A DNA stretch of 64,000 nucleotides from Alicyclobacillus sacchari (lineage in GTDB: Bacteria; Bacillota; Bacilli; Alicyclobacillales; Alicyclobacillaceae). The translations under genes and the position numbers were made by a program. Below, piece after piece: positions 2 through 60,039 of the stretch. Position 1 is the stretch's first letter, and each line of letters starts with the position of its first letter. The stretch spans positions 1 through 64,000 of the forward strand of contig NZ_SORF01000008.1 in the NCBI RefSeq assembly GCF_004366795.1, read 5' to 3'. The notes under the pieces were generated by a model that had not been told where the DNA came from, searched no databases, and saw only the letters and a list, made by a program, of their open reading frames with translations.

Positions 2-277
2 ACAGCTGTACTGGGACTCCCGGAGAAAATTCGTCGCCGTCTGCGGACAACCAATGGCGTGGAACGGCTAAACGAAGAGATTCGCAGACGTGAACGCGTG
101 ATCCGCATCTTCTCGAACCGCGAATCAGCGATTCGCCTGATCGGCGCTCTACTCATGGAGATAGACGAAGCATGGACAACGGGGCGCAGATATCTCGATA
201 TGGAGGCGTATTGGGCATGGAGAGAACAGCAAGCATCATCCGCACAAACCGCAAAGGTGCACACGCTACGGGGATAA
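2..277 (+). CDS. IS256-family transposase, C-terminal part
   Basis: Partial gene, open at the left window edge and read in frame from base 2 (91 residues seen). IS256-type DDE transposases cut and paste the element through a circular intermediate. The piece carries the conserved tail of the family: an arginine-rich stretch followed by TTNGVERLNEEIRRRERV, the helix IRIFSNRESAIRLIGALL, and the typical aromatic end around YWAWRE. The catalytic Asp/Asp/Glu residues would lie upstream. An apparent GTG start at 59 is internal to the domain and not real. The tail reaches the usual family end, so there is no sign of decay in what is visible. Confidence 0.85.
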   Translation, partial: TAVLGLPEKIRRRLRTTNGVERLNEEIRRRERVIRIFSNRESAIRLIGALLMEIDEAWTTGRRYLDMEAYWAWREQQASSAQTAKVHTLRG

Positions 278-540: not shown

Positions 541-2277
541 TTAACCCAGAATGGAAAGATCATCCCCAGGATACGAATTTGAAGCGTTTTGTGTTTGAAT
601 CACGGTAGTTGTTCCGCTCTGCGACTGCGTCGTACCTGTCGAACCGTCCGCTTGTTGTCCAGAGACGTTCACCACGGCTGCCGACTGCCCTTGGCCGATG
701 GAGCTATCATGTGCACCCTGGATTTGACCAATATTTGTTCCAGTAGACTGCACCTGTGTTACATTGGTTGCACCATTCGCATGTTGGCCCGAGAGATTCG
801 CGACGCCAGCGGCCTGGTGCTGCGCAGTATCGGAACCACTCGTAGAAGATTGGCCCTGACCAATGCCAGACTGATTGATTTGATACTGACCGTCCGTACT
901 GTTATCGCCAATTTGCCCTGTCGAGCCATTCGCCTGTTGAACTCCCACGTTCAGCACGCCAGCGGCCTGTGTCTGATGCGAGTTGGAGTTGACATTCGTC
1001 TGATCCTGACCGAAGTCATTCAAATTCGACTGCGACTGATATTGGCCGTTTGCTCCTTCTGCAGACTGCACGCCTACATTTACAGCGCCTCCAATTTGCG
1101 TCTGGCTGCGATCCCCACTCAAACCAATTTGCTTTTGGACGGATCCCGTGGATGTCGTCTGAGACTGCATAGTGTCAGTTGAGCCATTGGCAGATTGCAA
1201 GTTCACATTTAGGCTGCCGCTAGCCTGGGTTTGTGGTAGGTACCCTCTTCCCACTTGCCCTTGTGACTGTGCTGTCAAGTATGTGTTGGATTGACTCTGA
1301 AACGTTCCTGATGCCCCTTGAGCCGACTGTCCATCCAGATTCGCCACACCACTGGCCTGCGTTTGTGTAGCCATGCCTCCAACAGCTTTTTGCTGTTGTG
1401 TTGCATTGTTGTTATCTCCCTGTTCTTGCAATGTATCAGTCGATCCATCCGCTTGCTGGCCGCTAAGGTTCACATTCGTATCTAACTGTTTTTGCTCTGC
1501 ACCTGAGATCACACTGTTTTGAGTCTGTGCACTTCCTGTGCTAGTGGTTTGAGCTTGATCGCTCCCCATGGCTCCTTCTGCGGACTGGCCGTCGGCTGTG
1601 AAAACTGCTGTCTTTTGGCTTTGCCCAGTGATTGAAAACAAACTGCCTTGCGTTTGCTGAGCCGTAGTTTGATTTTGTTGTCCTTGAAATACATCCAGCG
1701 ATCCATCCGCACGCTGGCCGGTCAAGGTATGGTTGACAAACGACTGTGACTGCTGTCCGAAGATAGATGCGCCAAGTTGCTGAGATTGTGCAAGCCCCGT
1801 ATCATTAGCTGACTCCTGTGTGTTGTAACCCGCGACACCTGTTGCATCATTTGCGGACTGCACAGATTTCGTTGTGTTGAGCGCTTGCTGGTTTTGTCCG
1901 GAAAGCAACGTCCATTTTCCTGTCTGTGATTGAGCAACAGATGTTGCACCGGACTCTTGTTGGCCAACATCTGTCGATCTATTTGCACTTTCTGTCGCAG
2001 CTGTTACTCCACGATACGTAGCCGTTTGCTGGCTTCCTTCCGATGATGTGTTGCCCTGCGACTGTGCAACCGCCGTACCTGGATCCTGAAGCGTTCCATT
2101 TCCGTAGTCTTGCTGCTGTACAACACCATCTGCTCCGTTTGCCGACTGGCTTAACACGTTTTTCTGCGTAACACTTTGCTGCTGTGGACTAACGCCAGCA
2201 AACGCCATCGGAGAAGCAATAGCCAAAACCGTCACTGCCGCTGCCACTGTCATACCCGCCTTGCCCTTTCCGTTCAT
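541..2277 (-). CDS. Exported Gln/Ser/Asn-rich repetitive protein (578 aa)
   Basis: No recognised family. ATG 2277 is chosen (TTG 2280 also possible) because GGGAGG lies just upstream; longer starts lack a site. Residues 1-27 form a clean signal peptide ending SPMAFA, so the product is exported. The mature part has almost no Lys, Arg, Cys or aromatics and is built of about eleven degenerate units of roughly 45-50 residues. Their core reads like GVxNVxGQQADGSTDxxQxQ, with alternating QxQ and TQA/SG steps. Such Gln/Asn/Ser/Gly repeats with regular Val/Leu recall curlin-like or beta-solenoid fibre subunits, but this is inference only. No sortase motif, SLH domain or membrane anchor is seen. It is divergent from a second Q/S-rich exported protein gene (2730-5393), suggesting a shared surface or matrix role. 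Confidence 0.75.
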   Translation of the reverse strand: MNGKGKAGMTVAAAVTVLAIASPMAFAGVSPQQQSVTQKNVLSQSANGADGVVQQQDYGNGTLQDPGTAVAQSQGNTSSEGSQQTATYRGVTAATESANRSTDVGQQESGATSVAQSQTGKWTLLSGQNQQALNTTKSVQSANDATGVAGYNTQESANDTGLAQSQQLGASIFGQQSQSFVNHTLTGQRADGSLDVFQGQQNQTTAQQTQGSLFSITGQSQKTAVFTADGQSAEGAMGSDQAQTTSTGSAQTQNSVISGAEQKQLDTNVNLSGQQADGSTDTLQEQGDNNNATQQQKAVGGMATQTQASGVANLDGQSAQGASGTFQSQSNTYLTAQSQGQVGRGYLPQTQASGSLNVNLQSANGSTDTMQSQTTSTGSVQKQIGLSGDRSQTQIGGAVNVGVQSAEGANGQYQSQSNLNDFGQDQTNVNSNSHQTQAAGVLNVGVQQANGSTGQIGDNSTDGQYQINQSGIGQGQSSTSGSDTAQHQAAGVANLSGQHANGATNVTQVQSTGTNIGQIQGAHDSSIGQGQSAAVVNVSGQQADGSTGTTQSQSGTTTVIQTQNASNSYPGDDLSILG

Positions 2278-2729
2278 CAACGCTTTTTTCCTCCCTAATA
2301 ATTGCTCTTTATATGGGAACCTCATGTACATACGAATGATCTACAAGAGGATTCCTCCACCCTTAACCCCACGGAGGTTCGCGCTGATGATCCGGCAAAA
2401 CACAACCGTGGTTTGCGCCGGAGTTGTTGTCGATCTCTATCTTGTCTGTCTTTTAACCCAGCCGCTCTGAATCTATTCTCACATCACAATCCTTTAGACC
2501 GATCCCGCTGAAAAATTTTTCTCCCCGTCCGCCGACGCCCGCATCACCACCGCAAAGGTGAAATATCGCCCGTTCTGAGTTTTGCCGGACAACCTACTTT
2601 CCATACGTTGTTTGTAAAATTTTCAGTCATGGGTTTAGCAGAAGCATATTTGCGAAAAGCTGTTCATCAAATAGACAGACTTGAAGTCATAGAAGCAGAT
2701 ACAGACTCAAACAGTGAGGGTGAAAATGG
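2278..2729. other. Divergent intergenic region between two repetitive-protein genes
   Basis: About 450 bases serve as 5' region for both genes. I see the ribosome site of the left gene near 2287-2293 and a 34-codon reading frame at 2629-2733. I cannot identify a convincing -35/-10 pair, operator or terminator in the rest. Confidence 0.4.
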
Positions 2730-2733
2730 GTGA
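2629..2733 (+). CDS. Possible 34-aa small protein coupled to the next gene
   Basis: A short frame with ATG at 2629 encodes a charged peptide beginning MGLAEAYLRKAVHQIDRLEV, rich in Glu/Asp toward its end. Its TGA (2731-2733) overlaps the GTG start of the following gene as GTGA, and the GAGGGTG inside it can act as ribosome site for that gene. Such overlap is typical of translational coupling. No good ribosome site precedes its own ATG and no family is recognised, so it may simply be leader sequence. Confidence 0.35.
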   Translation: MGLAEAYLRKAVHQIDRLEVIEADTDSNSEGENG

Positions 2734-5393
2734 TTAGAAGTTTGGGGATTACGATTGCCGCATCGTTCGCGGGGCTTGCAGGCGGCTATGTGACTGTCCA
2801 CGCGGCGACACAATCGCAGAATCAAAATGCATTCAGTCAACAGTATCAGGGCATTCAGAGTGGCAATAGCAACAGCTTAGAATCCGCCGCACAAACTTCC
2901 GCCATATCAGGAACGCAAATCTTGCAGCTCCCTACTCAATCCACCGCAACCCCTTCCACAAGTTACCATGGATATCAAGCGGTTGCGCAAGAAAGCTCCA
3001 TCGGTACACAGAATGCTAGCTCATCCGAGATTCAACAAACACAAACCATCGGTACAACCGAAAGTCAGAATCAAGAGATCCCCCTTGATGAAAACGTACA
3101 ACCTTTTCTGTCAGGATCACATGATTCCCCCGCTACATCCGTCGATCAATTCGCCGGTTACGCTGTTTTTGATGCATCTGGAAACATGATAAGCGACACA
3201 TTCGGAAATTTAGGTAACGGAGTTCAACACTTCGACGACTTTCAACCCAATATTCCTGTCGTGCTAGTTGTTCGTGCAGTTGATAAACAAGGCAACCCGA
3301 TTGCCAACCCTTCCGCAGCTAGAATTCACTTTCATTCCAATAACCCTGACGGACAAGTGAGTGTTATGGGCAAAGATGTGCATAGTCTGTACATGCCAAT
3401 GGGTTCACTTGGTGTGCCGTTTATATACACAAATTTAGGAAGACAAGCGGGATTTGATGTGATTGACGCTGAAGTTCTGCGAAACTGGTCTACTGCCGCT
3501 TCCATCTGTACTCAAGGCTGGACAGAACCGTCATCCTCAAGTACCTGGTCGCAGACGTCATCCTGGTGGTACTGGGCCTACCGCCGTTCAAAAGGTTCGC
3601 AACAGACCGTCGCCGGCTACGCCGTCTTCGATTTAAATGGCAATCGCCTCAGCGACAGTTTTGGCAGTATGAGTAACGCAACAGCACATTTTGACTGCTT
3701 CCAGCCCAACCAATCTACCATTTTAATTGTCTGTGCGGTTAACTCGGCCGGTATGCCCATTGTCAGTCCAGATAATTGCTATGTGAACTTATACTCCAAC
3801 AATCCGAACGGCACCATATCCGTTGGGGGACACCCAGCTTACGGTATTGAAGTTCCTGAAGGCTCCTACGGTGTGCCATTCGTCTATACAAACGCAGGAA
3901 ATTCACCAAGTTATGACGTGATCGATGCCAGAATATGCAATCCAGGTGTCGTGATCAAATCTGCGTCAAGCCCTTTTGTCCCGACACCCGGTACAGCCAT
4001 ACAAACCGCTGACGTAAATGCGTCACAACAAGAAAGTGCCACGGTGAGTACGCCAGCGATTGCTGTTCAAAGTGAGATGACAAATGTAGGAAGCTCACAA
4101 ACACAGTCGTTCAGCGGGACGACATCTGATACCCAAACGCAATCCAATGGTAGTATCACAAAGCAAACTCAACAAATTTCGACGAACGGACCCGTAAGTT
4201 TCAACCAAATTCAGTCATCAAACACCAGCACATCTCAAGTGCAGTCTACGACGATGTCTTCTCCAGGTAACGAACCTGGTACGACAATGACAATTGCCAT
4301 GAACCAGCTGCAAGCAATACAACCTTCCGACTTGTCATCGTCTGCAGAATCAAATACAGGAAGTCCAATCGTGCAAACATACGCAAGCGGTTCAAATGCC
4401 ACGGCAAGTGCCGACCAATCTCAATCGGCAAGTTTTCAAGTGGCTTCGGTTACGAATCTCTATGTGACGCAGAACGCGACAGCATCGACATCAGGAGTAC
4501 TACTTTCGGAAGGAATAGAAGTCGACTTATCATCCACAGGAAACTCCACCGCAAACACCGGAATTTTGAACGTCTATGTCAATGGACAGTTCTTTCATAC
4601 GTATGACTGCAATGGAACCGTAACCGTCGCGGAGCACCAATCGGCAACTCCTGTGAATCCAAATATACCCACAGGAGACAGTGTGGACGGCCCCAATGAC
4701 AACAGTACATTGAGCGTTGAACAGGGCCAGAGTGCCCAACCCAGCAGCGCTTCGCAACCCAGCAGCGCTTCGCAATCCAGCGGCGCTTCGCAATCCAGCA
4801 GTGCTTCGCAATCCAGCGACACTGCACAATCCAGCAGTGCTTCGCAATCCAGCGACACTGCACAATCCAGCGGCGCTTCGCAATCCAGCGGCGCTTCGCA
4901 ATCCAGCGGCGCTTCGCAATCCAGCAGCGCTTCGCAATCCAGCGGCGCTTCGCAATCCAGCGGCGCTTCGCAATCCAGCGGCGCTACACAATCCAGCGGC
5001 GCTTCGCAATCCAGCAGTGCTTCGCAATCCAGCGACACTGCACAATCCAGCAGTGCTTCGCAATCCAGCGACACTGCACAATCCAGCGGCGCTTCGCAAT
5101 CCAGCGGCGCTACACAATCCAGCGGCGCTACACAATCCAGCGGCGCTGCACAATCCAGCAGTGCTCCGCAATCCAGCGGCGCTTCGCAATCCAGCAGCGC
5201 TGCACAACCCAGCGACACTGCACAATCCAGCGGCGCTTCGCAATCCAGCGGCGCTTCGCAACCCAGTGGGGCCAATCAGCCTACGCCAGGGAACTCCGGT
5301 TCCTCATCCCAAATGTCTCAGGAGTCAGTTTCCAGCAGCGCAACGTTAACCTTCGGCCAAAACGGCCAACAAGTAACCGTACAACTTCCGTAA
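2730..5393 (+). CDS. Large exported protein: duplicated unknown domain plus hexapeptide repeat tail (887 aa)
   Basis: Starts at GTG 2730 behind GAGGG. Residues 1-26 are a signal peptide (hydrophobic core, VHAA cleavage region). Residues 27-140 and 405-560 are Gln/Ser/Thr-rich low complexity resembling the neighbouring 541-2277 product. Residues about 141-249 and 295-403 are two copies of one unknown domain of about 110 residues, each opening GYAVFD.xGN, with H(F)D.FQPN, YSNNP.G and ending GVPF.YTN...DVIDA. Both copies look foldable and beta-rich. Residues 670-849 are 30 tandem hexapeptides of the type QSSGAS, followed by a short tail ending QVTVQLP. The layout (domains on a flexible Ser/Gln stalk) suggests a surface adhesin or matrix protein, but no wall anchor is visible. 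Function unknown. Confidence 0.8.
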   Translation: MIRSLGITIAASFAGLAGGYVTVHAATQSQNQNAFSQQYQGIQSGNSNSLESAAQTSAISGTQILQLPTQSTATPSTSYHGYQAVAQESSIGTQNASSSEIQQTQTIGTTESQNQEIPLDENVQPFLSGSHDSPATSVDQFAGYAVFDASGNMISDTFGNLGNGVQHFDDFQPNIPVVLVVRAVDKQGNPIANPSAARIHFHSNNPDGQVSVMGKDVHSLYMPMGSLGVPFIYTNLGRQAGFDVIDAEVLRNWSTAASICTQGWTEPSSSSTWSQTSSWWYWAYRRSKGSQQTVAGYAVFDLNGNRLSDSFGSMSNATAHFDCFQPNQSTILIVCAVNSAGMPIVSPDNCYVNLYSNNPNGTISVGGHPAYGIEVPEGSYGVPFVYTNAGNSPSYDVIDARICNPGVVIKSASSPFVPTPGTAIQTADVNASQQESATVSTPAIAVQSEMTNVGSSQTQSFSGTTSDTQTQSNGSITKQTQQISTNGPVSFNQIQSSNTSTSQVQSTTMSSPGNEPGTTMTIAMNQLQAIQPSDLSSSAESNTGSPIVQTYASGSNATASADQSQSASFQVASVTNLYVTQNATASTSGVLLSEGIEVDLSSTGNSTANTGILNVYVNGQFFHTYDCNGTVTVAEHQSATPVNPNIPTGDSVDGPNDNSTLSVEQGQSAQPSSASQPSSASQSSGASQSSSASQSSDTAQSSSASQSSDTAQSSGASQSSGASQSSGASQSSSASQSSGASQSSGASQSSGATQSSGASQSSSASQSSDTAQSSSASQSSDTAQSSGASQSSGATQSSGATQSSGAAQSSSAPQSSGASQSSSAAQPSDTAQSSGASQSSGASQPSGANQPTPGNSGSSSQMSQESVSSSATLTFGQNGQQVTVQLP
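4737..5276 (+). repeat. 18-bp tandem repeat array, 30 in-frame copies
   Basis: Thirty units of 18 bases (consensus CAATCCAGCGGCGCTTCG) encode QSSGAS and variants (QSSSAS, QSSDTA, QSSGAT, QPSSAS). Higher-order units such as QSSSAS-QSSDTA occur four times, pointing to recent expansion by slippage or recombination. Because the unit is a multiple of three without stops, all six frames stay open, giving false antisense frames. Confidence 0.97.
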
Positions 5394-45920: not shown

Positions 45921-46070
45921 AGCCTAATGGCCGGAAAGAGGAATGGTCAGATTCGGGTTTCGAGTGGCACTCTTACATTGTATACTTGGTATACTTGAAA
46001 CAAGCAACTCTCCGCAATACATAAGGCAACAAACAAACCACAAGATTGGTATGCGAGGAGAAGTACACCT

Positions 46071-46937
46071 TTGAAGCCGCTATCGGAACGATTTCTAACC
46101 ATCGATGCAACTTGGTCCTCCTATGCACATCAGGATCAGTTAGATAACCGCTGGCTTCTGGCTCAAACGTTACACACAGCGGCCACCCGTCGAGCCTTTC
46201 TTCCTGCTCTGGGTATCAAAGACAACATGACGGTGCTTGATTTAGGCACTGGGTTTGGTGCACTGGCGTTCGAGATCGCTGCATCTTGGGGTGTTACCAT
46301 GTACGCGGTCGATCGTGACGAAGCGGCAATAAGCTCAGCGGAGAGCATGCTAGCTGAAATCGCAGGTGCGCAAGGAATACATCCGCAATCAAGTATAATC
46401 TTTCACATTGGCGACGTGTACCAACTCGCTTACGAAGACAACTCGTTTGACTACGTCGTCAGTCGTTTTGTATTTCAACATCTGTCCAGCCCCCAGCTTG
46501 CTATGCAAGAAATTAGACGGATCCTAAAACCAGGGGGTATCGTCTGTATCATCGATATTGACGACAGGTTATCGTTGTCATATCCGGAACCGTCACTAGC
46601 GTTTGTCCGACTCAGAGAAGCATTTTGTCAATTGCAGAATTTGAATGGAGGAGATCGCTACATCGGTCGTAAAATTCCGTTAATGATGCACGAGTGCGGA
46701 CTCGACGTTATAAGGACGCTCGTACTCCCTCAGGCTCAATTTTCCCATGTTTCTTCCGACGGTTTGGCTACTAGATTAGCAATTCAGCAGTTTCTTGAAC
46801 ACCAAGAAGCTATCATTGAACACGGGTTGCTAACCGCAGACGAGTTTGAAAATTATATAGGGTCATTGCAAACGTCATCCGCTAGTTGGGTTTATTCCGT
46901 CAATGAAGAACTGATTACAATCGGACGGCACCGATGA
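46071..46937 (+). CDS. Class I SAM-dependent methyltransferase
   Basis: A 288-residue methyltransferase; TTG 46071 lies ten bases after GAGGAG. The Rossmann fold shows motif I VLDLGTGFGALAFEIA, motif II Asp in YAVDRDEAAI, and motif post-I with DNSFDYVVSRFVFQHL and LKPGGIVCIIDID, as in UbiE/Methyltransf_11 enzymes. The C-terminal part is unassigned. It opens an AT-rich rightward set of sugar-modifying genes and may methylate a glycan or its amino acid carrier. Target unknown. Confidence 0.85.
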   Translation: MKPLSERFLTIDATWSSYAHQDQLDNRWLLAQTLHTAATRRAFLPALGIKDNMTVLDLGTGFGALAFEIAASWGVTMYAVDRDEAAISSAESMLAEIAGAQGIHPQSSIIFHIGDVYQLAYEDNSFDYVVSRFVFQHLSSPQLAMQEIRRILKPGGIVCIIDIDDRLSLSYPEPSLAFVRLREAFCQLQNLNGGDRYIGRKIPLMMHECGLDVIRTLVLPQAQFSHVSSDGLATRLAIQQFLEHQEAIIEHGLLTADEFENYIGSLQTSSASWVYSVNEELITIGRHR

Positions 46938-47086
46938 TATCCACCCGACGTCTAAAACATCCATATTACCACTTTTTATCATCGTGAGAATATGAAGCAA
47001 AAGAAATGAGACCGCCGAGCTGAGGACTTGACCAACAATCGATGTGTTCTCTAGCAATCGCCTATGAATGGAGGTAGCTGTAGATC

Positions 47087-47893
47087 ATGAATTCTGTATA
47101 TGTCGGAAATGGAAAAGTACTGTCGTCTACCGTATGGGGCGGGCGACTGCTAGCACCTGGGTTTGACCTATCCATTATGCCGGTTCTTGCCACTCATGGC
47201 GTTTTCGAAGTACAACTTACAAAATACCTGATTGACACTGTTAAGCCTGGTAATGTCGTCTTTGACATAGGTGCAAATATTGGATATTTCACTGTTTTGA
47301 TGGGTTTGTTGGTCCAAAGGAACGGACGAGTTGTTGCTTATGAACCATCGCCAGCCATTTTTAACTTCCTTCAGGATAATATCTTCATCAATTACACGAA
47401 CGAACAAACCACCGTAGTGAATGCAGCAGTGCACGATCACGTCGGTACCATAGCACTGTTCCAAACTAGCAAATTTACAGGGAATTCATCCGTGTTCGAA
47501 CCCGATACACAATACTTTTCGTATTTTAGAAGCGATGAAGAAGTGACACGTATTTCAATTGCTTGCGAACCTCTAGACAAACATCTGCATTCGTTCGAGA
47601 AGATAGATCTGATAAAGATAGACGTTGAGGGCGCAGAACTTCATGTGTTCGAAGGCATGACAGATCTATTTCATGCCAAAAAGGTAGCACGGGTCGTTTT
47701 TGAGTTTAATAAGATGCGTATTGGTGAACAGTGGCATAGGCTATTAGATAAACTCTTATATTATCGAGATGCGTTCGAAGTTACTTTTTACACATTAAAT
47801 AATGAAGGTCAGCCCGTCATTTGTGACATAGTCGATTTACTACAAAGAAACAACATTGTGGAAAATATCGTCATGCTATTCCCAACCCCCTAA
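47087..47893 (+). CDS. FkbM-family methyltransferase
   Basis: A 268-residue SAM-dependent O-methyltransferase of the FkbM family, which methylates sugars and polyketides. ATG 47087 follows AATGGAGG. Motif I is VFDIGANIGYFTVLMG, followed by VVAYEPSPAIFNFLQDNI and the family signature KIDVEGAELHVFEGM. Codon use is more AT-rich than in the housekeeping genes nearby, as for the whole set. The next gene's frame begins close behind, so an operon is likely. Confidence 0.9.
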   Translation: MNSVYVGNGKVLSSTVWGGRLLAPGFDLSIMPVLATHGVFEVQLTKYLIDTVKPGNVVFDIGANIGYFTVLMGLLVQRNGRVVAYEPSPAIFNFLQDNIFINYTNEQTTVVNAAVHDHVGTIALFQTSKFTGNSSVFEPDTQYFSYFRSDEEVTRISIACEPLDKHLHSFEKIDLIKIDVEGAELHVFEGMTDLFHAKKVARVVFEFNKMRIGEQWHRLLDKLLYYRDAFEVTFYTLNNEGQPVICDIVDLLQRNNIVENIVMLFPTP

Positions 47894-47942
47894 TGTCTAC
47901 CGGGATTGTCTGTCCCTAAATAAAGGAAGGTTCATTGATCAT

Positions 47943-49049
47943 ATGCAGCCTCTAAACATCTTGCTGGATGGTCTTTTCACTAACGGGTCAGGTTTCGCTG
48001 AAGATAATTTGCGAATTTTATCCGCTCTTCGGAGCGGTCGGCACAAGGTGCAAATCCAAAATCGCCTTGCCGGGCATGCCCCCAATCCTGCACTCAGGCT
48101 GTTTGAGTCAGTACGTCTGGACACAAACGACATTTACATATGCAATCTGATGTGTGGCGCAGTTGAAGCAAGAGATGACTTCCGCATCAACATAGCACGT
48201 ACCACGTTCGAAACCGATCGCTTGCCTAAGGAATGGGTAACCCGATTAAATGCATTTGATGAAATTTGGGTTCCAAGCAGTTTTAATGCAGATGTTTTCA
48301 GCAGTGCAGGCGTCGTGTCGCCAATTTACGTCATACCCGAAACGATAGACTTTCAAATTTTTGACCCGAAAGGCGACGCGTGGCCGCTTCCGACCCACAA
48401 CCAGTTTGTGTTCCTCTCCATTTTCGACTGGCAGGCTCGTAAAGGTTTCCGCGAGCTTTTGCAGGCTTACATGGAAGAATTCACGGTAAAAGATAACGTG
48501 GTACTCGTAGTCAAGACGTACGATTTAACAGGGAACCGGGATCCGGTAGGCGAATTGGCAAAATGCATGGAGTTGTTTTCCAAACACGACTCACCTCCAG
48601 TGTATGTCTTGAGTCGCCACTTACCAATTCATGAAGTTGCAGCGTTATATCGAGCTGCAGACGCTTTTGTCCTTCCAACGCATGGAGAAGGATGGGGCCG
48701 GCCACTCTTTGAAGCCATGGCGATGCAATTGCCTACAATTGCAACTGACTGGGGGGGTCAAAAGGACTTCATGAATGAGACAAACTCTTATCTAATCTCA
48801 TATGAGCTTGGACCTGCAGAAAGCGAGTACTCAGTGTTTGATGGACATTCATGGGCTCATCCGTCCATTCCCAACCTTAAACAACGTTTACGTCAAATCT
48901 ATGAATTTCCATCCGAAGCTAAGATACGCGGCCAAATAGCTCGAGAAGATTTACTGGTACATTTCAATGAATCAGTGATTCAAGCCAAGGTCGATGAACG
49001 ATTACAAGCACTAAGTATCCGTATTGCAAATGAGGTGTCTAAGAAATGA
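47943..49049 (+). CDS. Family 4-type glycosyltransferase
   Basis: A 368-residue GT-B glycosyltransferase. ATG 47943 is preferred, with AAGGAAGG 12 bases upstream; an earlier frame overlaps the FkbM gene. The N-terminal domain starts LNILLDGLFTNGSGFAEDN, an opening typical of such enzymes. The C-terminal donor domain has the linker VFLSIFDWQARKGFRELL, VYVLSRHLPIHEVAALYRAADAFV in pieces, and the GT4 acidic motif HGEGWGRPLFEAMAM. Its stop overlaps the next start as ATGA. Sugar donor unknown. Confidence 0.88.
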   Translation: MQPLNILLDGLFTNGSGFAEDNLRILSALRSGRHKVQIQNRLAGHAPNPALRLFESVRLDTNDIYICNLMCGAVEARDDFRINIARTTFETDRLPKEWVTRLNAFDEIWVPSSFNADVFSSAGVVSPIYVIPETIDFQIFDPKGDAWPLPTHNQFVFLSIFDWQARKGFRELLQAYMEEFTVKDNVVLVVKTYDLTGNRDPVGELAKCMELFSKHDSPPVYVLSRHLPIHEVAALYRAADAFVLPTHGEGWGRPLFEAMAMQLPTIATDWGGQKDFMNETNSYLISYELGPAESEYSVFDGHSWAHPSIPNLKQRLRQIYEFPSEAKIRGQIAREDLLVHFNESVIQAKVDERLQALSIRIANEVSKK

Positions 49050-50761
49050 TTCTACCGAAAATCGAGTGGGAAGGTCCACAATTGGTGAATAGTAGCTTGG
49101 GGCTCGTCAATCGGCACTTGTGCCGCGAGTTGCTTCGGCATGGGGCACAACTCAAGGTTACCCCCACAGAAAAGGATACAATACCAGACTATTGGTTCTC
49201 TGATGCAAATATCATCCGTGATTGCTACAACGCCAACATTGGAATGCCCTTTATTCATATTCGACAGCAATGGCCTCCAAGCCTGCGTTCCTCGGAGGCA
49301 CCGTTAAATATTTTGTTCCAGCCTTGGGAGTATGGACCGATCCCTGAAAAATGGATACCTTTCATTCAAACATCCGTCGATGAAATCTGGGTGAACAGTG
49401 ATTACACCAAGCAGGGCTACGTTAAGTCCGGCATCAACGAGGACAAAGTCTTTACCTTCCCACTTGGTGTCGATACAACCGTATATCGAGTGAACGGGCC
49501 GCGCTACGCATTAAAAACTGCAAAATCATTTATATTTCTGTTTGTTGGCGGAACTATTTACCGCAAAGGTATAGACAAAGTGCTTGAAGCATACCGTAAA
49601 GCATTCAAACGCTCCGACGATGTATGCTTAGTGATCAAAGATTTTGGCCGAACGAGTTATTACGCGGGACAAACGTACCATGAACAAATTCTAGAGGCCA
49701 CGCTTGACCCAGCTTCTCCGGAAATACTTTATATAGATTGGGATTTAACACCTGCCGAAATGGGGGCTCTGTACCGAGCAAGCAATTGCCTTGTCCATCC
49801 ATATCGTGCCGAGGGATTTGGGTTGCCTATTCTTGAGGCTATGGCGTGCGGGGTACCGGCGATTATTCCTTGTATCGGCCCTGCCACAGAATTTACGACG
49901 GAAGAAAATAGCTACCGTGTGGAATCTACATTAAGCACGATATCTATGCCAACCGACATGCAACTCGTACTGCCAGCAGAAATCATTGATGTCGATGTTA
50001 ACCACCTGATGGACACACTAATAGAGGCATTTACAAACCGAACACGCCACTCCGTGATGTGCGAGAAAGCTGTGCAACATGCGCAGAAATACACATGGGA
50101 AGTGATTGGAGAGATTGTTGCAAAACGCATCCAAGCCTTACATGAAAGGCCCCTGAGCAAGACTATCATCCGTCAATCCATGGAAGAACAGGCTTTTCAT
50201 CTCTTACAGAATGTCAACCAACGAACCACTAATCATACTGCGACAAGTGCAACATATGCGGCAATCCTCTCTCACGGTTTGCATGAAAGTGACGTGATAT
50301 TGGATATAGGCCCAAAATCAGCGGACCTGTTGGAATTTCTACAAATGAAAGGGGGACGCGTCACTACGTTAGCCCTAGTTGGCCCCTATCCTCTAGAGAA
50401 TAAAATCCGCAGCCTACTGTCGGATGAGTGGTTAAACCATAAGATTTACGACGTGGTGTTCATGAGACACGTAATTGAGAAATTGCAACCCAGATCCGCT
50501 GTTGAACTACTTTTGCAACTTTACAAAGCACTGAGCTATCGTGGTCGAATTTTCATTGTAACACCAGATTGCGATAACACACAAATGATCACAAAGAAGT
50601 TTTGGACAAATCCATTTAATATACGTCCCTATTCCATGGAACTATTACAATTGCTACTTTCCGAGGTTGGATTCCGTACAATAACCGGAGGTAAAATGCC
50701 TGGAGGGGATGATGCACTGATATTTGCCTCACGTCTCGCTAATGACAATCCATTTGTATAA
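49046..50761 (+). CDS. Glycosyltransferase-methyltransferase fusion
   Basis: A 571-residue two-domain protein starting at an ATGA overlap with the previous gene. Residues 1-370 are a GT4-type glycosyltransferase: LFVGGTIYRKGIDKVLEAY, LYRASNCLVHPYRAEGFGLP and ILEAMACGVPAII carry the donor-site motifs. Residues about 385-571 are a degenerate class I methyltransferase: VILDIGPKSADLLEF as motif I, YDVVFMRHVIEKLQP, and a final strand VGFRTITGG. Motif I lacks the usual GxGxG, so methylation is uncertain. The fusion would let one protein add and methylate a sugar. Confidence 0.82.
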   Translation: MILPKIEWEGPQLVNSSLGLVNRHLCRELLRHGAQLKVTPTEKDTIPDYWFSDANIIRDCYNANIGMPFIHIRQQWPPSLRSSEAPLNILFQPWEYGPIPEKWIPFIQTSVDEIWVNSDYTKQGYVKSGINEDKVFTFPLGVDTTVYRVNGPRYALKTAKSFIFLFVGGTIYRKGIDKVLEAYRKAFKRSDDVCLVIKDFGRTSYYAGQTYHEQILEATLDPASPEILYIDWDLTPAEMGALYRASNCLVHPYRAEGFGLPILEAMACGVPAIIPCIGPATEFTTEENSYRVESTLSTISMPTDMQLVLPAEIIDVDVNHLMDTLIEAFTNRTRHSVMCEKAVQHAQKYTWEVIGEIVAKRIQALHERPLSKTIIRQSMEEQAFHLLQNVNQRTTNHTATSATYAAILSHGLHESDVILDIGPKSADLLEFLQMKGGRVTTLALVGPYPLENKIRSLLSDEWLNHKIYDVVFMRHVIEKLQPRSAVELLLQLYKALSYRGRIFIVTPDCDNTQMITKKFWTNPFNIRPYSMELLQLLLSEVGFRTITGGKMPGGDDALIFASRLANDNPFV

Positions 50762-50772
50762 GAAGGCCGTTT

Positions 50773-50818
50773 ACTCCCCCTCCTGTCATTTGGTCTCGTG
50801 TAAGTGACAGGAGGGTAG
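50773..50818. terminator. Terminator between convergent glycan genes
   Basis: ACTCCCCCTCCTGTCA pairs with TGACAGGAGGGTAGT around a 16-base loop (one bulge), between the stops of the fusion gene and the leftward glycosyltransferase. Confidence 0.7.
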
Positions 50819-50836
50819 TATTTCACCGAAAAACAG

Positions 50837-53107
50837 TCAAAGTCGTTTCCAAGTTTCCGTCCATGACTCCCAGAATTCCTTCATATTCTGATACTGCTCT
50901 GCAATGAGGCTTGGCTGCAAAAACCATTTTACCAACATGCTATAGTAAAACGCGTATGATGCGTCCGCCGCTTTTCCAGCCTCTGTCGAGGAATCTGTAC
51001 TGCTTCTGAGGAACGTAATAATATCTTGTACATATTGAATGTATTTACGAGCCTCCATAATCTCTCCTTGCTCATTGAGAATACGGATTTGTTCCACACA
51101 CTCAACTGCGCGTTCGTGAAGTTTCACAAGCTTAACCTGCAAAGGCATGGTCAATGCAGACGACTGATATGCACGATGTGGATTCATGCCTTCATCCCCT
51201 TCGTTCCATTGCAACAACTCATCTATCTGTTTGACACGGCGCTGACGAACGTCCAATTCGCTTGCAATTCGTTTGAGCAGTTCTGATGACGAGAAAATCA
51301 TCCCCCCCTGCTCGACAACATGGCGTGCAAGCTCCACATTCCCGTGAGCCAACGCAATGTCAGCTTCGATCACAACACGACGAACACTGGGTGGATATTG
51401 CATCGCTTTCTCTAGCCAGGATATGCTTTCCCTCATATCGCCACGTCGGAAAGCGCGGTTTGCCCGAAATTCGCACTCCCACCCGTTCTCTCCAACCCAC
51501 TCCACCTCAACGAGTACATCACGCAAGGGGCTGGCAAGAATCGTTGGGAGTACCGTATGCTTATCCGTAGCTCTCGGCAACCACGCAGTTAATAACTTCG
51601 TAGCATGCAAAAGCATGAGTTCCATCAAGACATCTGCAATCTGAACCTCGGTATGTCCGTCTGAAATCCACTCGAGAATCATTTGACCGCGCGAATCGGC
51701 ATCCACTAACCATTCTTGAGCTGCTTGTATATCACCGTGTTCCAGATAATATAAACCCAATAATATCTGGATCTCAGCACACGGATTCGATTTCGTATAC
51801 ACATCCATAGATTGCTCGGATGCCCTCAACGCCTCGATCCAATGCAACCGTTCGATCAGCGTGTCTGTCAGGGGACCACGTGAAATTTCTGAAATCCAAC
51901 GCTGCCAATCCTTCCCCCCCCGAACGGCACACGCCTGGACAAAATACGCGAAGCAGAGCGGATCTTGCTTACATACATTGTATAACTGAGCACGAATCGA
52001 CGCATGCTCCAGTGGCAAAAGATTTGCCAGAAACCACACGATATTTTCCTGACGAGTGTTCTCCCGAAAACTCGTCAAATACCATTCAGCAGCACAAGCT
52101 GTGTCACCTAAGAGCAGCCATGCTCTCCCCAATTCCGCAGCCGCAAGAAAACTGCCGAGCCCGGGGACCGTATCGATTAAGGGATCTTTCACGTCTCCTA
52201 ATTGTCGACACTGAAGCAGTAGAGGGATGGCATCCGCGACGCGGCCGACCTGAATGAGCGCGTGCGCATGATCCATGCGGATATCAGGGAGATATGGGAA
52301 GATATTTTCACCCCGCTCCGCATACTTGATAGCCTCCGCCGTTTCACCCGTCATCGAAAGAGCCACAACCAACATTCTCAAAAGTCTCGCAAGCAGGTGG
52401 GTAGCGTGGTTGGGATTTTTTTGAAACACTTCAAACCCATGTTTACCAAGCTTCACAACCTCGTCATACCTCTGTACTCGCATGTACTCTGCCATCATGT
52501 TGGAGATGTGAAACAAGCTATCCGGATCTTTGTCCAGTTCTCTTTGCAAGAGTTCCATGTTCCGCGCCGGCTTTGCTTTGTACACAACAAACTCATACAG
52601 GTACCCTAAGTGGTGAATCCGCAGATTGAGTGTCTCGATGCGACCTCCACTGTCTATCACGGCAGGCAACACTTGTTCGTGAATAGAACCTGAATAACGA
52701 TAGCCATTCTTAAAAACCCGGAGTACCTGAACAGGAGAGGAAGTCTGATACCTCGCCGAAGTCCCCGTGTAATTCACGACGCCAACCAAATAACCATCGG
52801 CCCTCGATTCCAGAAGTTTCGACCGAATATGGCGCTTGTCCATGGGATCCAAAAACTCGTCAGCATCAATCACCAGTACATACTCACCTGATGCGCGCTC
52901 AAGCGCAGCATTGCGAGCCGTGGCGAAGTCACCATCCCACTCATGAAAGTATACCTTTGCCCCATGATCTCGTGCGATATCGACCGTTTTATCTTTGGAA
53001 CCTGTATCCACCACGATAATCTCGTCAACAACACCTGTAAGTGACTCTAGACATCTTGATAAAGTGAATTCCTCATCTTTCGTGATCAGACACGCTGAAA
53101 GTAACAT
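50837..53107 (-). CDS. GT2-type glycosyltransferase with long TPR region
   Basis: A 756-residue protein; TAGGAG precedes ATG 53107. Residues 1-200 are a GT-A family-2 transferase: LSACLITKDEEFTLSRCLESL, IVVDTGSKDKT, HEWDGDFATARNAAL and the metal-binding acidic motif VLVIDADEFLD. The remaining 550 residues are helical, TPR-like repeats (for example LARLLRMLVVALSMTGETAEAIKYAERG in part). GT2-TPR proteins near hag commonly glycosylate flagellin in Firmicutes, and fliD, hag and flgKL follow within 2 kb. It probably attaches the first sugar, by inference. Confidence 0.85.
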   Translation of the reverse strand: MLLSACLITKDEEFTLSRCLESLTGVVDEIIVVDTGSKDKTVDIARDHGAKVYFHEWDGDFATARNAALERASGEYVLVIDADEFLDPMDKRHIRSKLLESRADGYLVGVVNYTGTSARYQTSSPVQVLRVFKNGYRYSGSIHEQVLPAVIDSGGRIETLNLRIHHLGYLYEFVVYKAKPARNMELLQRELDKDPDSLFHISNMMAEYMRVQRYDEVVKLGKHGFEVFQKNPNHATHLLARLLRMLVVALSMTGETAEAIKYAERGENIFPYLPDIRMDHAHALIQVGRVADAIPLLLQCRQLGDVKDPLIDTVPGLGSFLAAAELGRAWLLLGDTACAAEWYLTSFRENTRQENIVWFLANLLPLEHASIRAQLYNVCKQDPLCFAYFVQACAVRGGKDWQRWISEISRGPLTDTLIERLHWIEALRASEQSMDVYTKSNPCAEIQILLGLYYLEHGDIQAAQEWLVDADSRGQMILEWISDGHTEVQIADVLMELMLLHATKLLTAWLPRATDKHTVLPTILASPLRDVLVEVEWVGENGWECEFRANRAFRRGDMRESISWLEKAMQYPPSVRRVVIEADIALAHGNVELARHVVEQGGMIFSSSELLKRIASELDVRQRRVKQIDELLQWNEGDEGMNPHRAYQSSALTMPLQVKLVKLHERAVECVEQIRILNEQGEIMEARKYIQYVQDIITFLRSSTDSSTEAGKAADASYAFYYSMLVKWFLQPSLIAEQYQNMKEFWESWTETWKRL

Positions 53108-53125
53108 CTCGGTCTCCTATCTTAT

Positions 53126-53464
53126 TTACACTTTGCTGCAAGCTTCCGACATAAACTGCGCCTTTGCGTAGGCCTTCATGGCGGGTGAAACTTCGAACAA
53201 CGCTAACAGCCCATCCGAAATTTCTTGGTGATACACCATTGCCAGCGTAAAGATTCGGTGTGTTTGTTCAAAGATCTCTTGTGCATTCCCATCGTTGTTG
53301 TTCTGAGCATCGACAGGTGACCACCCTGCAAGCAAATGACCTCGCGTCGTCATAACCGCCAGAGCTTCCTGCAACCTGCGCTCGCTCAATAACGTAATTG
53401 CCATTTGCCCCAACGCGCGAATTCTTTCCGGAATTGCATCCTCGGACTGATTGGAATGCAGCAT
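53126..53464 (-). CDS. Small FliT-like helical protein downstream of fliD
   Basis: A 112-residue helical protein. Its ATG overlaps the fliD stop as TAATG, so it is translationally coupled to FliD. Position and size match FliT-type export chaperones that follow fliD-fliS in Bacilli, but sequence similarity is not evident to me. Helices include IRALGQMAITLLSERRLQEALAVM and FEQTHRIFTLAMVYHQEI. It could be a FliD/FliC chaperone. No fliS is found next to it. Confidence 0.6.
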   Translation of the reverse strand: MLHSNQSEDAIPERIRALGQMAITLLSERRLQEALAVMTTRGHLLAGWSPVDAQNNNDGNAQEIFEQTHRIFTLAMVYHQEISDGLLALFEVSPAMKAYAKAQFMSEACSKV

Positions 53465-55014
53465 TACAGTATGCCACCCGATGAAGACGACGCCGAAGTT
53501 CCAAACATCGCCGAAATTTGTTTCATCTGCGCCTGCGCCTGTTCCATAACAGAATTCAATTGATTCAACTGATTCGTGTAGTTATTGACTTGATTCGTAA
53601 TCTGTTGTTGAACAAGCTTTAGGTAATTCTGAATGCTCGTCTGTTGCGCTGAAATGGCATTCAACTCACCCTCAATGGGGCTTGTGCCCGTGCCACTCGA
53701 ATTTCCCAGCAATAGATTGTTCATCAGGTTATAAGCATTGCCGAGCACGCCAGACTGGGGGATTGCCGTAGTCGCTGTCGTGGAAACCACGCCAAAAAGC
53801 TGCTGCACTGCGCTTGGGTTCGACGATAGCGCAGATTCGAACATGCTTTGCCCATCGGGCAACGTTCCTGCTGCACTAGAAAAACCAGATGCGGACTGAA
53901 ACTCTAAATGTCCATTGGAGGGATCAATTACAATACCAATTGACGCCAATGAATTAATTGCTGAGCTAGAAGTCGTTATGGACGCGCTCACAGCTGCGGG
54001 CAACTGGCGCAATAAGTCCATGGCAAGCGGATCTCCAAATAAAGGACCAGCGGTTCCTTGTGCCGATGAACTTCCTGTAGACGGTGGAGAATACGCGGTG
54101 TCTTGGTTAATGGTGTCCATCAGCGTGTTATACGCTGACATCCAAGTCTGGACAGCCTTCTCTGCTTCGCTTGTGTCGGTAGAGAGGGTCAGGGTTCCAG
54201 CGCTCACCATCGTCTGCGACACCTGAATGGTTACATTCGGAATATAATTTTGAAACGTGTTGGTTGACGACGTCATGGCCTGCCCATCAAGTGTAATCTG
54301 CGCATCGGTCCCATTCGTTGTAGAAAACTGCATTTGCCCTGTCCCTGAACCAATTAAGCTACCGCTTATAGAGAAGTTGTTTGTAGTCCCTGTATTGACG
54401 GACGAGAGTGACAAAAAGTACTGATTTTGTCCGTTCGTTAACACAGAGGCCTGTACTCCTGTAGCCGATGTCTGTTGATTGATGGCCGCTGCAATATCGT
54501 TCAATGATTCACCTGCCGACACACTAATCGTGGCCGTCTTACTGCTGTCGACAGTGTTTGTTAGGACAATGGTGCCCGAAGTAAGGTTTGAACTGCCGTC
54601 AGCACTCGTCTGAAACTGCGACGGAGAGTTCTGAATTGATGTTTGACTGGTGGCTAAGGAGGTTACTTGCAAAGAATACATAGCTGGTTGCGCGCTGGGC
54701 TGAACGGTAACTGTGAACGCACTTGGGTCACTCGACGTTCCTGTGACTGTGCTCCAACTTTGCAAGCTCGATAGCGTTTCCGTGGCTTGCTCGAATGTCT
54801 GCAAAGCCGTTTGCAGCCCTGTTAGTGCGGTTTGTTGTGAGCTCAATTGAGACAATTCGTTATTTGACGGTGTTTCCAACTGTTGAGTCAAAATTTGTTG
54901 TAAATCTTGGGCATATTGTGATACCGGTAAACCTGTACCACTCGGGTTTGACAGGGTATTCAACTGTTGAAGCAAGTTGGCCATGGAGCTTGAACCGGTT
55001 GATGAAATGGACAT
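53464..55014 (-). CDS. fliD: Flagellar filament cap protein FliD
   Basis: A 516-residue hook-associated protein 2 that caps the filament and guides flagellin folding. AAAGGTGG precedes ATG 55014. The N-terminal FliD_N region opens GLPVSQYAQDLQQILTQQLE with the Q/L/S coiled coil, and the C-terminal domain ends ITNQVNNYTNQLNQLNSVME typical of FliD. Composition is very Ser/Thr/Gln-rich, usual for secreted filament proteins. It is followed by a coupled small gene, then the GT2-TPR gene. Confidence 0.95.
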   Translation of the reverse strand: MSISSTGSSSMANLLQQLNTLSNPSGTGLPVSQYAQDLQQILTQQLETPSNNELSQLSSQQTALTGLQTALQTFEQATETLSSLQSWSTVTGTSSDPSAFTVTVQPSAQPAMYSLQVTSLATSQTSIQNSPSQFQTSADGSSNLTSGTIVLTNTVDSSKTATISVSAGESLNDIAAAINQQTSATGVQASVLTNGQNQYFLSLSSVNTGTTNNFSISGSLIGSGTGQMQFSTTNGTDAQITLDGQAMTSSTNTFQNYIPNVTIQVSQTMVSAGTLTLSTDTSEAEKAVQTWMSAYNTLMDTINQDTAYSPPSTGSSSAQGTAGPLFGDPLAMDLLRQLPAAVSASITTSSSAINSLASIGIVIDPSNGHLEFQSASGFSSAAGTLPDGQSMFESALSSNPSAVQQLFGVVSTTATTAIPQSGVLGNAYNLMNNLLLGNSSGTGTSPIEGELNAISAQQTSIQNYLKLVQQQITNQVNNYTNQLNQLNSVMEQAQAQMKQISAMFGTSASSSSGGIL

Positions 55015-55036
55015 CGGTATACCACCTTTCGAAAAT

Positions 55037-55066
55037 TCCTCGGCCGACGCATCCGCCGACCGAGGA
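55037..55066 (-). terminator. Terminator of hag
   Basis: TCCTCGGTCGGC pairs with GTCGGCCGAGGA (12 bp, mostly perfect), followed by ATTTTC on the minus strand; it lies between hag and fliD. Confidence 0.8.
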
Positions 55067-55077
55067 ACATGTCAATC

Positions 55078-55914
55078 TTATTGCAACAGCTTGAGGATTG
55101 CGTCCGGCTGTTGATCTGCTTGCGAAAGCATTGCCAAACCGACTTGTTGAAGCACTTGCTGCTGGCTGAACTGCGTGTACGCCTGCGCCATATCCGTGTT
55201 GGTGATGGTGGACTGAGCGTTCTGCAGGTTTTCTGCCGTGTTTTGCAGATTTGACACGGTGTAGTTCAGTTGGTCTTCCACAGCACCTACGTTTGCCTGG
55301 TAAGCGGACAAGCTCGTAATCGCATTTTGAATCGACGTGATGGCCTGCTGCGCGAGCGTTTGCGATGTGATGTTGATAGTTCCGCCAAGCAACGAGCCAA
55401 CAGCGACAGAAGCAATTGTAATATTCAACTGAGAATTGCCTGTGCCGTCGGTGTTAATCTGGAATGTAACACCTGAGGTTGCAAGGGAACCGTCAAGCAG
55501 AGTCATGGTATTAAATTTCGTCTGATTCGCGATGTTGTTGATCTGATTCTGAAGAGCGGTCATCTCTTGATTCAAGTTCGAGAGGTCTGTGCTGTTCTCC
55601 GTTCCGTTGGCCGCTTCTACAGCCAATGTGTTCATGGTCTGAAGAATGTTGTTGATCTGATTCATCGCTCCAGACGCGGTCTGCAACATGCTGATACCAT
55701 TTTGCGCATTTTGCACAGATTGGTTCAAAGCATTGACCTGTGCCGTCATCTGTTGAGCAATCGCATATCCTGCAGGATCGTCCGCGGCACTGTTGATCTT
55801 ATTGCCTGTCGACAACTGCGTATACGATGTGTTCAAGGCGTTGTTCACAGCGGACAGATTGGAAAGAATGCTGGACGCGGATGCATTGTTGTTCACACTG
55901 AAATCAAGAGCCAT
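55078..55914 (-). CDS. hag: Flagellin
   Basis: A 278-residue flagellin of the compact Bacillus type. GAGGAGG precedes ATG 55914. The N-terminal D0/D1 helices have ALNTSYTQLSTGNKINSAADDPAGYAIAQ, and the C-terminal D1/D0 ends STITNTDMAQAYTQFSQQQVL and a final ILKLLQ, as usual for export and polymerisation. The variable centre is short, about 100 residues and Ser/Thr/Asn-rich, offering O-glycosylation sites. It lies only 42 bases after flgL, without a clear sigma-D promoter between. Confidence 0.98.
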   Translation of the reverse strand: MALDFSVNNNASASSILSNLSAVNNALNTSYTQLSTGNKINSAADDPAGYAIAQQMTAQVNALNQSVQNAQNGISMLQTASGAMNQINNILQTMNTLAVEAANGTENSTDLSNLNQEMTALQNQINNIANQTKFNTMTLLDGSLATSGVTFQINTDGTGNSQLNITIASVAVGSLLGGTINITSQTLAQQAITSIQNAITSLSAYQANVGAVEDQLNYTVSNLQNTAENLQNAQSTITNTDMAQAYTQFSQQQVLQQVGLAMLSQADQQPDAILKLLQ

Positions 55915-55956
55915 GATAAGACCTCCTCAAAGGAATAAGAGTTGTTCTACCCACAA

Positions 55957-56880
55957 TTATGAGTTGGGTAAATAGTTTACGAGAGAGGGGAGTAGGATTT
56001 GCGCGCCCATTTGCAAGGCCGCCGTGTAAACGGTCTGGTCTGTGGTGAATTGAGTGATCACCTGCGCCATATCCGCCCCTTCAATCCCCCCCTTCTCGTT
56101 AGTAAGATTTGTACTATACTGCTGTAACTGATTTTGTGCGGTAGTAAACCTTTGGATGCGAGCTCCAAGATCCGCATTCAGGTTGATTACCTGTGTGAGG
56201 TTTGCGTTCAGATCACTCAAGTCCTGTTGTAGACCCGTTTCGTTACCTGCCGTCAAGTCTGACTGGATATTGTTCAGCGTGTCTTGCAAATTTGGAGATG
56301 AACCTGGTGCGGTAAGGAAAATATCTGACGCAGTCACCGTGATCGAGACGCTGACACCAGAAGCTATCTGATAGTTCATTTCGGAAGTTGCTCCACTCGG
56401 TACAGGCGAAGGGCTATCAGATGGACTTTTTTTCAGATACGTACTTGGTTGCGTTTGGGATGCTTGTCCACCAAAAATATAGTTGTTACCCTGCCGCTGG
56501 TCCGCAGTCTGATAAATCCCTTGAATAAGCTGTGCAACCGTATCCGCAAGTCCTTGTTGCCCACCCGCACTCATATTGGTCGAGTTAAGCGCCTGCACCA
56601 CATCAGACTGCACCTCCTGAAGCTGCGAAATAATCCCCTGGAGCGCAGTGGATGTATTGTTCATCCAAGTGAGTCCTGTCGAGATAGTTGATAGATAACC
56701 CGACGTCTCCTGAACCTCAGACGCCAAATTCATGTCTTCGGATACAGCCAAAGGATTGTCTGACGCTTTATTCAGTGTCTTGCCCGTCGATAGCTGCTCT
56801 TGCGTATTCTGCATCGAGTTATCGATATTTGTGATGTTATACAAAAACTGTTGTTGCTCCATCCACGGCGTCACGCGCAT
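55957..56880 (-). CDS. flgL: Flagellar hook-filament junction protein FlgL
   Basis: A 307-residue HAP3. GGAGGTGAAGG precedes ATG 56880. The N-terminus MRVTPWMEQQQFLYNI with STGKTLNKASDNP matches the flagellin-like N-terminal helix, and the C-terminus EGADMAQVITQFTTDQTVYTA the C-terminal one. It is read 14 bases after flgK and directly before hag. Confidence 0.95.
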   Translation of the reverse strand: MRVTPWMEQQQFLYNITNIDNSMQNTQEQLSTGKTLNKASDNPLAVSEDMNLASEVQETSGYLSTISTGLTWMNNTSTALQGIISQLQEVQSDVVQALNSTNMSAGGQQGLADTVAQLIQGIYQTADQRQGNNYIFGGQASQTQPSTYLKKSPSDSPSPVPSGATSEMNYQIASGVSVSITVTASDIFLTAPGSSPNLQDTLNNIQSDLTAGNETGLQQDLSDLNANLTQVINLNADLGARIQRFTTAQNQLQQYSTNLTNEKGGIEGADMAQVITQFTTDQTVYTAALQMGAQILLPSLVNYLPNS

Positions 56881-56894
56881 CTTCCTTCACCTCC

Positions 56895-58325: not shown

Positions 58326-58352
58326 GCTTGATTCACCTCCTAATCGAGAGCC

Positions 58353-58643
58353 TTATGCCAGACCGCTATAAGAACGCCCCTTATAAAGTTTCTTTAAGAA
58401 ACTCTCAGAAATGCTCAATCCTTGTTCAATGAGCATTTGCTGAAGTTGGACCTTTTGGGCGATACGATGCATTTCTTCGGGACGCCGTTCCATGTCAACA
58501 CGTTGTACCCGTTGTAAGCATGAACATTGTTCCGTAAGGAGTTCGATTAACCCATCCGTCCGCCCCGACTTCAGAGCTGTAAGCACACGATCCGTTGCCA
58601 TTTCCAATTGGTCAACTGCATCTATGACATCAGCCATCCGCAT
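58353..58643 (-). CDS. flgN: FlgN-family chaperone
   Basis: A 96-residue helical protein with ATG 58643 six bases after AAGGGG; it overlaps flgM by 14 bases. It resembles FlgN/YvyG, the export chaperone for FlgK and FlgL: helix ADVIDAVDQLEMATDRVLTA and a C-terminal helix ISESFLKKLYKG. It is shorter than typical FlgN (about 160), so a reduced version. Placement between flgM and flgK fits the family. Confidence 0.7.
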   Translation of the reverse strand: MRMADVIDAVDQLEMATDRVLTALKSGRTDGLIELLTEQCSCLQRVQRVDMERRPEEMHRIAQKVQLQQMLIEQGLSISESFLKKLYKGRSYSGLA

Positions 58644-58830
58644 CAAGAACCCCTTGTTGAACGATAACCTTTGCAATGTGATTCACATTCACGACATACG
58701 TTCCGTTGCGCACCGCTTCTTGAAGTTGCTTAAGCTTGTCTAAGCGACTCGTTTCCGGAGTTTGCAAATTCGTCGTCTGAGATATCTGTCGATTCCCAGT
58801 CACATCAAACGAATTGGATGGCGACCACAT
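58630..58830 (-). CDS. flgM: Anti-sigma factor FlgM
   Basis: A 66-residue anti-sigma factor that holds the flagellar sigma factor until the hook is complete. ATG 58830 follows AAGGAGGG; upstream starts are not needed. The C-terminal sigma-binding part RLDKLKQLQEAVRNGTYVVN followed by VNHIAKVIV resembles FlgM. It is shorter than B. subtilis FlgM (88). An unusual sigma-70-type gene lies immediately upstream. Confidence 0.75.
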   Translation of the reverse strand: MWSPSNSFDVTGNRQISQTTNLQTPETSRLDKLKQLQEAVRNGTYVVNVNHIAKVIVQQGVLDADG

Positions 58831-58946
58831 CGAGCTTCCCTCCTTGCCCTTCATCTTGAACAACGTCACCTTTTGTCGGATCGTTCGAGTGAGGCAAAAA
58901 ATTTTTTTGTTTTTGTCGAGCAACATTGAAAAAGATAGAAATAGAA

Positions 58947-58970
58947 AAGGAGCGATTGCGAACCGCTCCG
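58947..58970 (-). terminator. Terminator after the sigma-factor-like gene
   Basis: GGAGCG (58949-58954) pairs with CGCTCC (58964-58969) and on the minus strand is followed by TTTTCTATTTC, separating the sigma gene from flgM. Confidence 0.75.
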
Positions 58971-58995
58971 TGGTGCCATGACTTCGTATTTGGGT

Positions 58996-59568: not shown

Positions 59569-59593
59569 CTAACTCCCTACATACCGGCTGTGT

Positions 59594-59983: not shown

Positions 59984-60039
59984 GCCAAATACCTCCCTGT
60001 CCCCCATGTTTCGCGCTTTCCCGACAAAATCCTGCCATG

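Follow-up and report, generated by a model that had tools for sequence, protein, structure and literature searches.

A conserved divergent gene pair of Alicyclobacillus sacchari encoding a glutamine-lattice repeat protein and an Ig-like-domain protein, possible components of an extracellular matrix

The window analyzed here is a 64,000-nucleotide stretch of DNA from the very start of contig C8 in the 2.95-Mb genome of A. sacchari. The contig starts within a Mutator-family transposase, the C-terminal piece of which lies at positions 2–277 (plus strand). Beyond it lie two genes, designated A and B, in the divergent arrangement given by the original prediction for proteins of 578 and 887 amino acids (ORFs 541–2331 on the minus strand and 2730–5393 on the plus strand). 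The features of the pair are as follows.

541–2277, minus strand: gene A, predicted exported glutamine-lattice repeat protein, 578 amino acids (coding 544–2277; a longer frame extends to 2331)
2197–2277, minus strand: A residues 1–27, signal-peptide-like start, recognized by eye; the only part aligning with the starts of protein C (see below)
1732–2196, minus strand: A residues 28–182, Q-rich with looser spacing
544–1731, minus strand: A residues 183–578, nine units of approximately 43 residues with four Q elements per unit
2278–2729, no strand: divergent intergenic region
2730–5393, plus strand: gene B, predicted exported protein of 887 amino acids with Ig-like domains, a Q-rich region, and a stalk
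3144–3479, plus strand: B residues 139–250, Ig-like domain copy 1
3603–3938, plus strand: B residues 292–403, Ig-like domain copy 2
3942–4649, plus strand: B residues 405–640, Q-lattice spacing (z = 5.5)
4737–5266, plus strand: B hexapeptide stalk of the ASQSSG type, an 18-bp array of 29.4 copies
5314–5390, plus strand: C-terminal approximately 26 residues of B, still recognizable in the remnant of genome G010

Gene A starts with ATG at 2277, with GGGAGG 12 bases upstream, and gene B starts with GTG at 2730. A sigma-70-like site was looked for in the intergenic region 2278–2729, and none was found. The signal peptides previously assigned to both proteins were seen at their N-termini and appeared to be of the Sec type, as judged by eye rather than by a predictor. 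The neighbors of the pair in the window encode a permease, an aldehyde dehydrogenase, and a solute-binding protein. In Alicyclobacillus tengchongensis and in G010, a chemotaxis-like gene lies beside A where the window has the transposase piece. Elsewhere in the window, a 756-amino acid frame (50837–53107, minus strand) adjoining fliD, two flagellin genes, and flgK contains a GT2 glycosyltransferase domain (residues 4–126), TPR repeats, and a C-terminal FliS domain (residues 646–754), and is possibly a fused flagellin glycosyltransferase-chaperone. The G+C content falls to 0.44–0.50 over this flagellin/glycan cluster (46001–60000) and is 0.605 just after it.

Protein A had been described as about eleven units of 45–50 residues. 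The repeats were found, with a different number and length: after the looser stretch of residues 28–182, there are nine units of 43, 43, 43, 44, 43, 43, 51, 43, and 43 residues. The glutamine elements, most of them QxQ, are mostly 10–12 residues apart (one per approximately 10.75), and from residue 208 the steps between them are mostly 11, 11, 11, and 10 residues with a few breaks. The low-complexity glutamine pattern of the original prediction exceeded chance, as there were 36 QxQ motifs in A versus 17.9 ± 3.5 in composition shuffles; mature A contains 101 glutamine residues. The autocorrelation of glutamine gave z values of 8.4, 7.5, and 7.1 at lags of 10, 12, and 22 residues, 4.8, 3.7, and 4.5 at lags of 32, 33, and 34, and 8.0 at a lag of 43. 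The earlier statement that no family could be recognized also held: neither A nor B matched any family in Pfam or NCBIfam up to E = 1, and a PDB sequence search with A gave no match.

The only named relative found for A was that of A. tengchongensis (76% identity), in which A and B lie in the same divergent arrangement, as anticipated for a related genome; the contig there ends within the stalk. Between the two species, 91 of 101 glutamine, 50 of 62 alanine, 62 of 78 glycine, and 23 of 38 valine sites of A were identical. In an alignment of three-unit blocks of A, comprising paralogous blocks and orthologs, most Q and QxQ columns were invariant. The dN/dS ratios between the window and A. tengchongensis (L002) were 0.112 for A and 0.154 for B with the stalk excluded, and that of A between genomes G038 and G039 was 0.082, all of these being rough figures because dS was near saturation (1.1–1.7). 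The A–B pair is real and conserved and has been subject to purifying selection, and the conserved repeat register on which the earlier fibre proposal leaned was present in A.

Structure prediction of a few units, the other check proposed earlier, was less informative. The AlphaFold model of three A units (130 residues, six-row alignment) had a mean pLDDT of 33.3 and a pTM of 0.19, with values below 50 at 130 of 130 residues, which supports nothing, because a disordered chain would give the same result. Mature A is also weakly charged (12 K+R and 34 D+E per 551 residues), and such a low charge would suit acid surroundings, the habitat of the genus Alicyclobacillus. These properties, together with the low complexity of A and the Ser-rich stalk of B, would be expected if the two proteins formed a secreted, largely disordered, mucin-like coat of low charge, hydrated in acid, in which the glutamine spacing reflects repeat amplification. 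We regard such a coat as a rather unlikely explanation, since the 10–12-residue spacing persists over nine diverged units, and the glutamine sites of A were kept above those of glycine and valine at near-saturated dS.

Protein B carries the duplicated domain and the hexapeptide stalk that had been noted from its sequence, and the two copies of the domain (residues 139–250 and 292–403) were 47% identical. No SLH match was obtained with B, and its two matches in the PDB sequence search both lay on the low-complexity stalk. The domain had been called unknown; profile and model comparison instead pointed to an Ig-like fold. A profile built from nine copies of the B domain (A4) matched 16 of the 59 genomes of the order. 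The seven strong matches (160–173 bits) were the B genes, and the weak matches in the other nine genomes (20.7–37.9 bits) were excluded from the B gene count. A class-wide sample of 398 genomes added three more with weak matches, all outside the order, and a plasmid collection gave no match to the domain. Four weakly matching proteins were inspected: those of three of the nine genomes of the order (L046, L047, and L049) were large and rich in Ig domains, and that of L075 had SLH repeats. The profile of the B domain aligned with the domains of these four proteins at 98.5% in hhalign (E = 3.8e-15, 87 columns), a score that is not independent because the four domains had been picked as hits of the same profile. 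The AlphaFold model of copy 2 was a beta-sandwich of eight strands (pLDDT 78.7, pTM 0.71). Foldseek returned nothing under E = 0.001 for this model (best, 0.024). In VIA-align, its first match was a GH2 enzyme domain (Z = 7.7, 2.7 Å over 89 residues) and its fourth the S-layer protein SbsB (Z = 7.0, 3.3 Å over 93 residues), where Z values below 8 perhaps reflect a common arrangement only. From the profile and the model, we take both copies to be Ig-like surface-protein domains.

Strong B genes were present in 7 of the 59 genomes of the order (G000, which is the genome of the window, G005, G025, G029, G036, G038, and G039). Intact A was found in four of the 59 (G000, G005, G038, and G039), with a remnant in G010, and three (G025, G029, and G036) had another protein, C. 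Protein C is a QxQ-rich, predicted exported protein of approximately 280–290 amino acids encoded beside or near B. All seven strong-B genomes had A or C, and at the thresholds used, neither intact A nor C occurred in any of the remaining 52 genomes; the overlap gave p = 3e-9 with relatedness ignored, a value given no weight here, the seven genomes representing five genera and few lineages. The expectation that the pair would recur in relatives was therefore borne out as A+B or C+B wherever B was strong, and not in the 52 genomes from which the pair was absent. In the 398 class-sampled genomes, A was detected in only four of the same genomes, G010 among them. In G010 (L027, 9330–10090), an internal deletion joins the 3' part of A, from approximately codon 400, to the last approximately 26 codons of B; both remnants contain internal stops and the same permease gene adjoins. 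A weak match to the unit profile in G040 (E = 0.002) was judged to be due to chance, its ORF having no lattice, and A3 also matched weakly at two other places, in G036 and G025, where the ORFs were not rich in QxQ.

The glutamine lattice was sought in B and C at lags fixed beforehand from A. In the genomes with A, the region of B after the Ig-like domain had the lattice in four of four cases (z = 5.5, 5.3, 4.1, and 3.7), and 0 of 1000 shuffles reached the observed value in each. In the genomes with C, the same region lacked it in all three cases (z = 0.4, 0.9, and 0.7). In none of the seven genomes was a lattice clear in the N-terminal Q-rich part of B (z = 0.2–2.2). Protein C itself had no lattice despite its QxQ excess (z = -1.5, 0.3, and -1.9 in the three genomes). 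Homology between A and C was considered and rejected, as the hhalign alignment (61.6%) was confined to the signal peptides.

These results bear on an alternative explanation, in which B alone matters at the surface, as a stalked protein that is either an adhesin with Ig domains or associated with the S-layer, while A or C is secreted independently and accompanies it by chance. The relationship of the Ig-like domain to large Ig-rich and SLH proteins agrees with it, as does the unlinked state of the genes in G038 and G039, where A and B are on separate contigs and at least 7 kb on either side of B contains no A. We nevertheless consider it improbable, because A or C accompanied B in seven of seven genomes, the unlinked cases included, and the lattices of A and B match.

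In two other genera (G029 and G036), genes for C, B, a sortase, a glycosyltransferase, and a SinR/SlrR-like regulator lie within some 6–7 kb, and a PF00144 gene adjoins C. The best NCBIfam model for the sortase was class F, below the cut-off. The glycosyltransferase is of the GT2 type, by Pfam for the G029 copy and by eye for the G036 copy. For the regulator, the SinI domain scored above the Pfam cut-off in G036 and below it in G029, and the best NCBIfam model was SlrR, below the cut-off. The proposed surface or biofilm matrix role was partly supported, in that it fits the SinR-like regulator and sortase of these cassettes. In both cassettes, a small protein in which a CTCGH motif was identified by eye (L020, 10724–11188; L023, 5814–6566), and which has no Pfam match, is encoded between the SinR-like gene and B or the glycosyltransferase gene. 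Downstream of B in G029 (L020, 7152–8537), a 461-amino acid frame with SpaA/SdrD_B-like prealbumin-fold matches is possibly another surface protein. A sortase gene also follows B in G025, and one precedes A in G038, nearest to class D models and just below the cut-off. Sortase (PF04203) was present in 28 of the 41 genomes of the family, and a search for PF04203 in the window's genome and G005 found none.

In the window's genome and G005, SinR-like protein matches were only partial (37–40% over the HTH part). The sequence GTTCTYT, which we take to be the SinR motif, occurred 15 times in the window versus 13.9 expected and not between the two genes, and SinR control of the pair was rejected. TasA (PF12389) was found in 9 of the 41 genomes of the family; no PF12389 match was detected in A, B, or the window's genome, and no TasA in G005. 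The seven strong-B and nine TasA genomes shared no member, and G010, in which the pair is lost, has TasA. Replacement of TasA was not accepted from this zero overlap, and nothing was rested on it, because it would arise by chance with p = 0.15. In G010, TasA-like genes and a SinR homologue are close together on the contig carrying the A and B remnants.

Alicyclobacillus is a spore former, and exosporia commonly contain repetitive proteins. A and B might accordingly be spore-surface proteins, of the exosporium or crust, made in late sporulation. The Sec-type signal peptides seen by eye, the SinR-like regulator in two cassettes, and the lack of a sporulation family in the Pfam hits of the part of the neighbors that was scanned all argue against this assignment, which we hold to be very improbable.

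The signal-peptide-like starts, the lattice under purifying selection, the Ig-like domain, the association of A or C with B, and the B lattice found only with A are computed results, whereas it is inferred that the proteins are exported, form strands and fibres, and serve in a biofilm, and what B does there. The pair is very probably extracellular and probably structural, and possibly a matrix comparable to curli, by analogy only. Our preferred reading, whose chances we put just short of even, is that A and B both belong to a system that forms an extracellular matrix or a surface fibre, with A as the fibre subunit and B as its partner, by analogy with curli. Within what was searched, this putative system was found in part of the Alicyclobacillus family. 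In this model, A would serve as the principal structural component, and its Q elements, recurring every ~10.75 residues, would place glutamines on one face of successive short strands. Because glutamines at i and i+2 lie on one face of a beta-strand, they could stack as ladders and the chain could fold or assemble, and one element per approximately 11 residues is what short strands stacked via turns would need. The stacked ladders of A would thus build a cross-beta layer or fibre, as in curli subunits. B would be the minor partner. Its Q-lattice segment could initiate the A lattice or be incorporated into it, and the Ig-like domains and Ser-rich stalk of B may keep the assembly in place at the cell surface, set its spacing, or cross-link it, conceivably in biofilms. 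The pLDDT of 33 for the A model, the missing curli motif, the C proteins without a lattice, the negative searches for sortase, TasA, and a full-length SinR homologue in the window's genome, and the neighbors in the window were counted against the fibre.

A more specific version, which we think doubtful, is that the pair represents a new, sequence-unrelated cross-beta matrix of Gram-positive acidophiles, in which an uncharged lattice with the ~10.75-residue period would be suited to low pH, the lattice of the partner must match the subunit (A-type or C-type), and the matrix would take over the role of TasA in genomes lacking both TasA and SinR. If the matrix reading is true, a curli-like matrix absent from Pfam and NCBIfam exists in some Gram-positive acidophiles. 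Its regular glutamine lattice would allow clear mutational tests, and the genomes would themselves supply partners with and without a matching lattice for comparison. No literature on Alicyclobacillus matrix fibre proteins was among the matches listed, in a search with subscription journals mostly outside it. Alicyclobacillus biofilms are described as a nuisance in fruit processing (PMC7435816).

Among known systems, sortase-dependent adhesins and serine-rich repeat proteins resemble B in its Ser-rich stalk and in the sortase genes near B in G025, G029, and G036, whereas A and B have no LPxTG-type end and no sortase was found in the window's genome. Bacilli surface proteins that are rich in Ig domains or carry SLH repeats (L046, L047, L049, and L075) have domains that align with the duplicated domain of B, but B has no SLH match and is mostly rich in Q and S. 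The TasA/TapA-SipW system of Bacillus, which is under SinR, is similar in proposed role and in the SinR/SlrR-like regulator of the G029 and G036 cassettes. In TasA itself, globular subunits are joined to one another by donor-strand exchange (PMC9674648), whereas A is a repeat protein and neither A nor B contains PF12389. Membership of the curli family was rejected: the curli repeat is given as X6QXGX2NX10 (PMC3521004), and QxGxxN occurred 0 times in A (1.0 expected) and once in B minus the stalk (0.3 expected). Pfam also gave no match of A or B to the curlin repeat family PF07012 at E values up to 1. Unlike the curli proteins CsgA and CsgB, B is not an internal homologue of A and has Ig-like domains and a stalk. 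The pair nonetheless resembles CsgA and CsgB in its tandem repeats, regularly spaced glutamines, predicted export, and proposed major and minor partners, and half of the 43-residue unit of A is close to the curli repeat in length (PMC3521004).
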